A DNA stretch of 43,066 bases from Desulfotomaculum sp. (GTDB lineage Bacteria > Bacillota > Desulfotomaculia > Desulfotomaculales > Desulfohalotomaculaceae). A program made the position numbers and the translations under genes. Of the stretch, positions 5,350 to 34,686 are shown piece after piece (within the stretch, counting starts at the first letter, position 1; every line of letters starts with the position of its first letter). A model generated the notes under the pieces. It was not told the DNA's origin. It was given only the letters and a program-made list of their open reading frames with translations, and did not search any database. The DNA lies in NCBI GenBank assembly GCA_017656165.1, contig JACDOL010000011.1:1-43066 (forward strand), read 5' to 3'.

Positions 5350-5371
5350 GTAGGTGAAAAAAGTTAATATG

Positions 5372-5443
5372 TTCACGTATATCCTTGGGAATATGGCCCA
5401 AGAGTCTCTACCGGGCAACCGTAAATTGCCCGACTACGTGGGA
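5372..5443 (+). promoter_or_regulatory. Guanine-type purine riboswitch aptamer (G-box)
   Basis: All three helices and both loops of the purine riboswitch can be read. P1 is CACGTA/TACGTG (5374-5379 with 5435-5440). P2 is CTTGGG/CCCAAG (5384-5389 with 5397-5402) closed by AATATGG. P3 is CGGGCAA/TTGCCCG (5412-5418 with 5426-5432) closed by CCGTAAA. The junction AGTCTCTACC is near-consensus. The base-pairing position equivalent to C74 of the xpt aptamer is C at 5434, which in this family means guanine/hypoxanthine and not adenine recognition. It is expected to lower expression when guanine is plentiful. Confidence 0.96.
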
Positions 5444-5550
5444 AAGTGTACCTAGGGTTCCACACCCGCTGCGGGTGGTTCGGTCCGAGCGGTACAGGCT
5501 GGTTATTTTTTAGTTAACCAGTTACACCGGCAGGGATAAAAGCCCAGGCG
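5444..5550 (+). promoter_or_regulatory. ykkC-class aptamer, probable PRPP riboswitch (subtype 2b)
   Basis: Conserved ykkC elements occur in order: CTAGGGTTCC (5452-5461), GGTCCGAG (5482-5489) and GGGATAAAAGCCC (5533-5545, the P3 hairpin). Pairings are P1a GTGTA/TACAC (5446-5450 with 5523-5527), CACCC/GGGTG (5463-5467 with 5473-5477) and CTGGTTA/TAACCAG (5499-5505 with 5515-5521). ykkC RNAs divide into guanidine, ppGpp, PRPP and nucleoside-diphosphate sensors. A position directly after a guanine aptamer and before purine genes is the published setting of the PRPP subtype, which switches genes on. Class membership is read from sequence; the ligand is inferred from context. Confidence 0.88.
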
Positions 5551-5601
5551 GTAGGTTTCGCACGCTCTAATGAAACCTACGCGCCTGGGCTTTCTTGCTT
5601 T
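5542..5601 (+). terminator. Riboswitch-controlled intrinsic terminator
   Basis: A long hairpin: GCCCAGGCG (5542-5550) pairs with CGCCTGGGC (5582-5590) and GTAGGTTTC (5551-5559) with GAAACCTAC (5572-5580), with one bulged G and a 12-base loop, followed by TTTCTTGCTTT. Its 5' strand includes the CCC (5543-5545) that closes P3 of the preceding aptamer. Ligand-stabilised P3 and the terminator are therefore mutually exclusive, as expected for a PRPP-activated switch. Confidence 0.92.
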
Positions 5602-5706: not shown

Positions 5707-5825
5707 TTTTTACATAAAAAACCTCAAACGGGAGGTGTTCGGGCCGGCCTAAAAAATTAAATAATATTTTGACTAAAGGCAGAAAAAATAAAGTTAACCT
5801 GCAGCGACAAGGAGGAATTATAATA

Positions 5826-7196
5826 ATGCTTGAAAAGCTGTTTCAGCTGAAGAAGTACAATACCGATGTCAGAACAGAAATTATAGCGGGTTTAACAACC
5901 TTTATGACCATGGCTTACATTCTTTTCTTAAACCCCACCATATTATCCACCACAGGAATGGAAAGAGACGCTATATTTTTCGCTACTGCAGCTGCTGCCG
6001 GTATTGTTACCATTGCCATGGGGTTAGTTGTTAACTTTCCTGTTGCCCTTGCACCGGGTATGGGATTAAACGCTTACTTTGCCGCAGTTGCCGCTGAAGG
6101 AATGGGTATGCCCTGGCAGGTGGCGCTGGGTGCAGTATTTATTTCCGGTATTATATTTATTATTTTAACAGTTACCCAGGTTCGCCAGCTGCTGGTTGAT
6201 GCAGTTCCTGATTCCATGAAGAGGGCCATTACTGTGGGTATCGGATTATTTATTACTATAATTGGTTTAAAGATGTCTGAAATAATGGTAGTACAGGCTG
6301 CGCCCATTCCGCCCACTATAGATAAACTGGCGGAAGAAGGAAGCACCACTTTGATGTTCTTTGAGTGGAACATACTGCTGGGCAGTTTCAGCAACCCGGC
6401 AACACTGCTGGCTTTAATTGGACTGGCAATTACCGGGATACTGATGGCCAGGGGAGTTAAAGGTTCTCTGCTGATAGGTATTTTGACCAGTACCATTATT
6501 GGTATTCCCCTGGGAGTAACCCAGGTTCCTGAAAATTTTTCTCTTTTCGCCCTACCGAACTTTAACAACCTGGCGGTAGGGGCCCTGGACATTAAGGGTG
6601 CGCTGGAAATGGGTATTTGGACCGTTGTATTTACCTTTACCTTTGTAGAGCTGTTTGATACATTCGGCACCCTGGTGGGTACAGCCAACAAGGCAGGACT
6701 GCTGGATAAGAGCGGTAAAAGTCCCCGCCTGGGTAAGGCTATGCTGGTAGATGCTTTTGGTGTTTCTTTCGGTGCTTTAATGGGTACCAGTACCGTTACT
6801 GCTTACGTTGAAAGCAGTGCCGGCGTCAGTGAAGGTGGGCGTACTGGTTTAACTGCTGTGACTGTCGGTATTCTGTTCCTGCTGGCACTGGTACTGGCAC
6901 CGGTGGCCGGCCTGATTCCCAGTGCTGCCACTGCACCGGCACTAATTATTGTAGGCGTTCTTATGGCTTCAGCAGTAAAAGAAATTAACTTTGATGACTT
7001 TACCGAAAGCCTGCCTGCTTTCCTGACCTTTTCACTGATGCCTTTTACCTACAGCATTGCTAACGGTATTGCCGCTGGTATTGTATCTTATGTGGTACTG
7101 AAGGCAGCGGCCGGCCGGGCTAGAGAAGTGCACTGGTTGATGTGGATTTTAGCCGTTCTGGTTGTAGTTCGCTATGCATTCCTGGGAGGAGAGTAA
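5826..7196 (+). CDS. pbuG: NCS2/AzgA-family purine (hypoxanthine/guanine) permease
   Basis: A 456-residue integral membrane transporter of the AzgA branch of the NCS2 family (PbuG/PbuO/AdeQ type), importing purine bases by proton symport. Family marks are the opening RTEIIAGLTTFMTMAYILFLNP, the APGMGLNAYFA segment in TM3, and FTFVELFDTFGTLVGTANKAG followed by DAFGVSFGALMGTSTVTAYVESSAGVSEGGRTG, which carry the substrate-binding residues. Twelve to fourteen hydrophobic segments are visible. The in-frame ATG at 5769 lacks a ribosome-binding site; ATG at 5826 follows AAGGAGG and matches the family start. It is first in the purine operon, so the guanine/PRPP leader controls import along with synthesis. 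The symbol pbuG is by family; adenine transport cannot be excluded. Confidence 0.93.
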   Translation: MLEKLFQLKKYNTDVRTEIIAGLTTFMTMAYILFLNPTILSTTGMERDAIFFATAAAAGIVTIAMGLVVNFPVALAPGMGLNAYFAAVAAEGMGMPWQVALGAVFISGIIFIILTVTQVRQLLVDAVPDSMKRAITVGIGLFITIIGLKMSEIMVVQAAPIPPTIDKLAEEGSTTLMFFEWNILLGSFSNPATLLALIGLAITGILMARGVKGSLLIGILTSTIIGIPLGVTQVPENFSLFALPNFNNLAVGALDIKGALEMGIWTVVFTFTFVELFDTFGTLVGTANKAGLLDKSGKSPRLGKAMLVDAFGVSFGALMGTSTVTAYVESSAGVSEGGRTGLTAVTVGILFLLALVLAPVAGLIPSAATAPALIIVGVLMASAVKEINFDDFTESLPAFLTFSLMPFTYSIANGIAAGIVSYVVLKAAAGRAREVHWLMWILAVLVVVRYAFLGGE

Positions 7197-31861: not shown

Positions 31862-33886
<2,025 letters not shown>

Positions 33887-33954
33887 ATTTCATTATGCCT
33901 GCCGGGTAATAATGTACTCTGGTAAAAACATAAATCACCAAAGGAGAGGTCGGA

Positions 33955-34299
33955 ATGAGTAAAAAAGTGTCTATTATGGTTTTTGGAGGAGATTTGCCTT
34001 TCTTCAGCGGCGGTTGAGGCCCAACTCCCGGAGCCGGCTGCGGTTCCAGCAAAAGTGCAAGGGAAGAATTTGAACAGTTCGCCTCTGAAATGGAGGCTAA
34101 GTACCAAGACTTGATATCCGTTAAATTTGTAGACTTAATCAACGACGACTTAGGTCCATACCCGGAAGTTAAAAAACTGGTGGGAAGGTTTAACCCCCCT
34201 CTGGTAGTCATTAATAATGAACCACGCTTCCACGGAGGACTTTCTGTGGATGTGATTTCCAAGGCGGTGGATGAAATAATTAACCAGCAGGAACATTAA
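33955..34299 (+). CDS. Thioredoxin-fold selenoprotein (in-frame UGA = selenocysteine)
   Basis: A 114-residue protein whose codon 21 is TGA (34015-34017). ATG at 33955 follows AAGGAGAGG, and the frame runs on for 93 codons after the TGA to a normal stop. The predicted layout is beta (KVSIMVFGG), a redox loop GGUGPTPGAGCGSS with Sec21 seven residues before Cys29, a helix (SAREEFEQFASEMEAKY), beta (ISVKFVDLI), a helix, a probable cis-Pro strand (NPPLVVINNEPRFHGG) and a C-terminal helix: a thioredoxin-like fold. A bSECIS-like hairpin follows the UGA. It sits between ligA and gatCAB with no redox gene beside it, so its partner is unknown. I cannot assign a named family; it recalls small disulfide reductases such as the YuzD type. 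Ordinary gene calling would find only the fragment from 34090. Confidence 0.87.
34030..34047 (+). promoter_or_regulatory. Bacterial SECIS-like hairpin
   Basis: GGAGCC (34030-34035) and GGTTCC (34042-34047) form a 6-bp stem with one G-U pair around the hexaloop GGCTGC. The loop begins 18 bases after the UGA codon and starts with G. This fits the known requirement for bacterial SECIS elements: a short stem-loop with an early loop guanine about 16-37 bases past UGA, inside the coding sequence. Confidence 0.72.
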
Positions 34300-34341: not shown

Positions 34342-34370
34342 TTGCATGTGCAGCAAAAAATTTGTATAAT
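34342..34370 (+). promoter_or_regulatory. Promoter of gatCAB
   Basis: TTGCAT (34342-34347), a 17-base spacer and TATAAT (34365-34370) lie 34 bases before the gatC start. Confidence 0.78.
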
Positions 34371-34404
34371 ATTGACAGTTTTTTTGACAAGGAAGGTGTT
34401 TATC

Positions 34405-34686
34405 TTGATCACTAAGAAGGACGTTGAACACGTTGCTCTGCTGGCAAGGTTAAAGTTAAATGAAGAAGAAAAAGAAATGTATACAAGGCAGTTAAATGAT
34501 ATATTAAAATATGCCCAAAAACTGCAGCAGCTTGATACTGACGCGGTGGAACCTACCGCTCACGTTCTCCCAATTAAAAATGTTTTCAGGGAAGATGAAG
34601 TGGGCGATCACCTGCCAAATGATAAAGCCCTTGCTAATGCCCCGGAGAAAGAAGGTAATTACATAAAAGTACCTAAAATTATGTAA
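34405..34686 (+). CDS. gatC: Glu/Asp-tRNA amidotransferase subunit C
   Basis: A 93-residue small subunit that wraps around and stabilises GatA in the GatCAB complex. The family pattern ITKKDVEHVALLARLKLNEEEKEMYTRQLNDILKYAQKLQQLDTDAVEPTAHV is clear, ending NYIKVPKIM. The likely start is TTG at 34405 after AAGGAAGG; the upstream in-frame ATG at 34342 falls inside the promoter and cannot be used by this transcript. Confidence 0.94.
   Translation: MITKKDVEHVALLARLKLNEEEKEMYTRQLNDILKYAQKLQQLDTDAVEPTAHVLPIKNVFREDEVGDHLPNDKALANAPEKEGNYIKVPKIM

Follow-up and report, generated by a model that had tools for sequence, protein, structure and literature searches.

Between ligA and gatC in a Desulfotomaculum sp. 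genome (assembly GCA_017656165.1) lies a small reading frame with a TGA at its 21st codon, and this raises two questions: is this TGA a stop or a selenocysteine (Sec) codon and, if it encodes Sec, what may the protein do? We analysed the 43,066-nucleotide stretch of DNA that carries this gene (contig JACDOL010000011.1; hereafter the window), together with relatives of the gene. A preliminary description, made from the sequence alone, had proposed a selenoprotein gene with a ribosome-binding site, an ATG, the in-frame TGA and 93 further sense codons, located between ligA and gatC. All these elements held: translation from the ATG at 33955 continues past the TGA through 93 sense codons to a TAA that ends at 34299, and the ORF list and the loci of the same GTDB family both support the proposed location, since the order ligA-gene-gatC is kept in 6 of the 7 own-family loci (Table 1). 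The gatC start at 34342 is the call of the tool, and the true start likely lies further inside.

Table 1. Coordinates of the putative selenoprotein gene, its elements and its neighbours in the window.
Feature	Coordinates	Strand	Basis or remark
Shine-Dalgarno sequence aggagagg	33942..33949	+	5 nt 5' of the ATG; read directly from the sequence
CDS of the putative 114-residue thioredoxin-fold selenoprotein (TGA = Sec, TAA stop)	33955..34299	+	Translation, same-frame homologues through the TGA, dN/dS
Putative Sec21 codon TGA	34015..34017	+	TGA in 7/7 GTDB-family genomes; at least 15 Sec/Cys exchanges on the tree of 94 relatives
SECIS-like hairpin GGAGCC-GGCTGC-GGTTCC	34030..34047	+	Energy against synonymous null, pairing, missing in Cys-only relatives
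Cys29 codon, proposed partner of Sec21	34039..34041	+	Cys in 87/94 relatives
Pro82 codon, thioredoxin cis-proline position	34198..34200	+	Pro in 94/94 relatives; role inferred from the fold
ligA, upstream neighbour	31886..33886	+	ORF list; neighbour conserved in own family
gatC frame, downstream neighbour	34342..34686	+	ORF list; neighbour conserved in own family

One alternative would be that the TGA is a true stop, followed by an ORF remnant or by a second gene, or that it is a sequencing error. What speaks for it is that an ATG at 34090, downstream of the TGA, opens a 69-amino-acid frame without any stop (ORF list). Against it, a TGA was found at this very codon in all seven genomes of the same GTDB family, on separate contigs; none of the six own-family genes checked has any other in-frame stop, and the seventh gene (L015) has a TGA at the same codon. 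Amino acids are conserved in the own family both just before and just after the TGA, and the dN/dS ratio downstream of it ranged from 0.06 to 0.18 among six genes wherever dS was computable. Synonymous sites are near saturation, and dS was often saturated. The presence of a hairpin and the exchange of Sec for Cys among relatives, both detailed below, also speak against a true stop or an error, which we consider all but excluded.

Among 94 relatives, the position of the TGA is occupied by a single Sec (U) in 63, by two adjacent Sec (UU) in 4 and by Cys in 27. On a tree of these relatives constructed without the loop columns, at least 15 Sec/Cys changes were counted, a number that is approximate because many forks of the tree are unresolved. 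The family is a natural experiment in which Sec and Cys were repeatedly exchanged at one site, with a SECIS hairpin gained or lost to match.

According to published rules (PMC13188914), a bacterial SECIS element has a stem of 4-16 bp and a loop of 3-9 nt with a G in its first two positions, lies 16-37 nt past the TGA and has an energy of -7.5 or lower. The hairpin of the window gene meets these rules, with 6-7 bp and a loop GGCTGC (or GCTG) that starts with G, 18-19 nt past the TGA; the 6-bp hairpin with a loop beginning with G 18 nt past the TGA that had been described earlier was thus found exactly as claimed. Its energy was -11.1 kcal/mol, compared to a mean of -3.15 (sd 2.6) for synonymous redraws of the codons that follow the TGA (P=0.005). 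The hairpins of the own family gave a mean z of -2.8 against the same null, and a control region located 30-50 codons downstream showed no hairpin excess over it. When the helix was followed across the seven own-family genes, its seven pairs were formed in 49/49 cells, and two pairs had changed on both sides. Two such pairs would not stand out by themselves, since 105 of 500 shuffles gave as many, but the paired percentage and the covariation score do, being reached in only 9 of 500. Covariation was counted in these seven genes only: we abandoned a joint comparison of clades, since the helix of a second clade is offset in register (UCCGC-CGGGU-GCGGA, judged by eye). In the wider family, the 67 TGA members had hairpins stronger than the codon null (z -1.67, p 6.5e-10), whereas the 27 Cys-only members showed no hairpin excess over it (z 0.19), and the two groups differed with p 2.6e-9, these p-values treating related sequences as if they were independent.

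The genome has a complete Sec machinery: a tRNA-Sec gene is found on contig C4, SelB and SelA are encoded side by side on contig C30, and SelD is encoded on contig C78 by a gene that carries its own TGA. Since 109 of the 113 genomes of the class have SelB, its presence within the class is uninformative, and the contrast between carriers and non-carriers of the family was thus made outside the class, where SelB was found in 45/45 carriers (44 above the cut-off) versus 29/45 non-carriers (p 6e-6).

The preliminary description had named three results that would refute the selenoprotein reading, and each of them was looked for. The absence of selABCD is contradicted by selA, selB, selD and tRNA-Sec, all present in the genome; homologues lacking both Sec and Cys at position 21 are contradicted by relatives that have one or the other there; and a codon that would not be TGA is countered by its recovery in independent genomes and contigs. 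The selenoprotein reading is therefore supported, and we consider it very likely (probability of about 0.97) that the window gene encodes a genuine small cytosolic selenoprotein, an inference made from sequence data and not from experiments. Annotation that takes TGA as a stop would truncate or miss genes of this family, which is present in 40 of the 113 genomes of the class and adds to the known selenoprotein families.

What kind of protein is it? The structure predicted by AlphaFold is thioredoxin-like, with a mean pLDDT of 80.4, so that the thioredoxin-like domain proposed earlier held as a predicted fold of good confidence except in the loop. The TGA had been placed in the loop after the first strand, and Sec21 indeed sits in the predicted beta1-alpha1 loop; residues 17-30, including Sec21 and Cys29, are modelled at a pLDDT below 50, so the model does not establish that residues 21 and 29 are near each other. 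Cys29 is kept in 87 of the 94 relatives and Pro82 in all of them. The U-x7-C spacing between Sec21 and Cys29 held for the window protein, which thus does not meet the classical CxxC/UxxC criterion of two residues between the redox pair, and is just one spacing among many in the wider family.

No Pfam family matched the window protein at E 5 and no NCBIfam family matched it above its cut-off, SaoT being sub-threshold only; single weak matches in these libraries, such as cytidine deaminase or chorion proteins, were rejected as chance. No relative was found in viral contigs. A catalogue published in 2026 (PMC13188914), which covers 119 families of prokaryotic selenoproteins, contains neither a U-x7-C thioredoxin nor a DUF1462 form; according to this catalogue, the selenoprotein-neighbourhood families reported in 2025 (PMC12013261) mostly have NCBIfam accessions, and NCBIfam was scanned here. 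The closest solved structure is 1xg8, the DUF1462/YuzD (PF07315) protein of S. aureus (listed as SA0789 or as SA0798, depending on the library), which ranked first with Z 10.1, rmsd 2.7 and 100 aligned residues, although ordinary thioredoxins came within 1 Z unit. The family profile also matched 1xg8 weakly (E 0.022), and distant relatives approach or pass the Pfam cut-off of DUF1462 (27 versus 25 bits for L099, several others being near) and bear Sec. The window protein itself differs from DUF1462 in that it fails the Pfam gathering score, and in its family the distance between Sec and Cys varies and is mostly wide, while YuzD has Cys-x2-Cys in the corresponding loop. Considering these fold and profile matches and the relatives at the cut-off, we regard the window family as a distant Sec-bearing relation of DUF1462, which the curated cut-off leaves outside that family; the literature searched yielded no report of a DUF1462 protein with Sec.

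Two other groups of small thioredoxin-like selenoproteins are comparable. SaoT (NF040730) also has Sec forms and matches residues 37-110 at E 0.16, but the window protein scores only 11.8 bits against a cut-off of 65 and SaoT is catalogued with UxxC (PMC13188914). The Sec.1 and Sec.2 proteins of Brachyspira (PF13192, PMC5330540) are likewise small selenoproteins of the thioredoxin fold, and a SECIS hairpin follows their TGA; they differ in that their Sec lies in an extension before the thioredoxin domain (PMC5330540), that they are catalogued as CxU and UxC (PMC13188914) and that PF13192 does not match the window protein at E 5. Thioredoxin-fold selenoproteins as such are known, but this one belongs to a new family as far as the libraries searched show; Sec-annotated copies in the full NCBI protein database cannot be excluded because that database lay outside the search. 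The suggestion that it may be an undescribed type thus held as far as Pfam, NCBIfam and the 2026 catalogue reach, with the refinement that distant members match the DUF1462 Pfam family, so that it is no orphan.

How might such a protein work? As inferred from the sequence, SelB and tRNA-Sec would read UGA21 as Sec owing to the hairpin. In the predicted fold, Sec21 and Cys29 sit in a flexible loop near the invariant Pro82, and we infer that Sec21 would be the reactive residue and Cys29 its partner: the Sec21 selenolate would attack an oxidised or electrophilic substrate, whose identity remains unspecified, Cys29 would resolve the adduct as a selenenylsulfide and a thioredoxin-type reductant would then open it. 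This whole reading, a selenoprotein with a Sec21-Cys29 redox role, is the likeliest one, although we give it a probability of only about 0.5, its biochemical part being inferred. Redox is favoured for the window clade because its loop has one Sec, one Cys and no extra ligands and because the genome lacks ACR3. Several observations go against it: the wide variation in Sec-Cys spacing, which is not expected of a dithiol redox pair, the low confidence with which the loop is modelled, and the location of sister clades in arsenic operons.

The clades of the family indeed have three contexts: ligA-gatC for the window clade, selD-yedF, and arsenic operons. In the latter, the genes are found with ACR3 and ArsR, near ArsE-like thioredoxins, ArsC or ArsM. 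This brings in a serious rival, in which the protein is the same selenoprotein but Sec21 and Cys29 are ligands of soft metal(loid)s, as in the arsenic metallochaperone ArsD, which binds metal through cysteines of this loop, after strand 1. In its favour, ACR3 and/or ArsR accompany the family gene in 18 of 94 tree rows, compared to none of 20 control loci from the genome of the window; the loops of ars-linked relatives often gain residues, giving Cys-Sec...Cys-Cys (CU..CC), and some Sec-less loops are rich in Cys and His; ArsD (3mwh) is among the fold matches (Z 8.6, rmsd 3.0, 84 aligned); and the ars-linked Cys-Sec clade weakly matches the ArsD-related VcpD (NF047871; 9.1e-6). The spacing variation and the Sec-less forms rich in Cys and His suggest ligands more than a redox pair, which is why this rival must be taken seriously. 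Against it, the window clade sits between ligA and gatC and its protein offers two chalcogen ligands only; the Z score of ArsD is tied with those of ordinary thioredoxins, and when the ars-linked clade itself was modelled, ArsD did not rank among the first 50 matches. VcpD has no match with the window protein, and the best relative reaches 25.6 bits against a cut-off of 90. Moreover, an arsenic role for the window clade was sought through co-occurrence with ACR3 and failed: at E 1e-60, ACR3 is absent from the genome (G000), of which 99.9% is covered, ArsB and ArsA being outside this search. We rank metal(loid) binding behind the redox reading and consider it less likely than not.

The selD-yedF context suggests another rival, in which the protein would be a selenium carrier that hands selenide or perselenide to SelD, the Sec-Cys pair being the carrying site. 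It is supported by a 14-member sister clade that lies divergently beside selD and the gene of the selenium protein YedF, ahead of yqfC-yqfD, a placement that we take as a conserved link to selenium metabolism, and by the presence of SelB in all carriers tested outside the class. Against it, the selD gene of the genome lies on another contig, most SelB genomes of the class lack the family, the conserved gene order may be plain neighbourhood inheritance, and the scheme would be circular, a selenoprotein being needed for selenoprotein synthesis unless SelD works without a carrier. We consider this rival unlikely. The 14 tree rows of this clade include L005-L009 and L016-L021, with the genes upstream of yqfC-yqfD-phoH.

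The redox reading remains the one that we prefer for the window clade, and the sister clades by selD-yedF and in arsenic operons make it testable whether Sec serves redox or soft metal(loid) handling. A bolder reading is possible, although less likely than not: the family may be part of an uncatalogued selenium-using superfamily that spans DUF1462/YuzD and ArsD-like proteins. Its members would share one thioredoxin fold, the active-site loop being freely rebuilt with a single Sec, an adjacent pair of Sec or many Cys, and would deal with soft metal(loid)s (arsenic, selenium, mercury) and not with disulfides. If so, the window clade would be a housekeeping branch, and the Sec-Sec forms would bind metalloids through a vicinal diselenol.

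Several side observations concern individual relatives. The relatives whose arsenic operons contain ACR3 and, in most cases, ArsR (L024, L025, L028, L039, L043, L044, L094, L095, L124, L144 and L156), are Sec or Cys forms, and some genomes have three to six paralogues. Adjacent in-frame TGATGA codons occur in four relatives (L115, on the minus strand, and L116, both in genome G097; L118 and L119, both in genome G098); their loop reads CSUUGP..AAGC and coding continues in frame, so that the active-site loop would hold a Sec-Sec pair. Three Sec-less relatives (L097, L098 and L134) have a Cys/His-rich loop, such as EHEGCGCGCGHAH, that resembles a metal site. The genome of the window also has a paralogue without Sec and without Cys (L002, also L038; C43:3234-3458), adjoining a gene that we take, by eye, to be tex; such a paralogue is also found in two genomes of the same genus (L045 and L050), making it a redox-dead copy kept in three genomes. 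C-terminal fragments of paralogues were seen in L043 (9156-9323), L047 (2062-2310), L081 (588-755) and L115 (1485-1697); they are likely decaying duplicates, and arsenic operons are close by in L043 and L047.

Elsewhere in the window, positions 5355-5552 of the forward strand match the purine riboswitch and guanidine-I (ykkC) families, the two matches overlapping by 16 nt, and a purine permease-like gene (5769-7196) lies downstream. This arrangement agrees with a tandem guanine-PRPP riboswitch described in the literature (PMC5912903), in which case the half of ykkC type is likely a PRPP aptamer.
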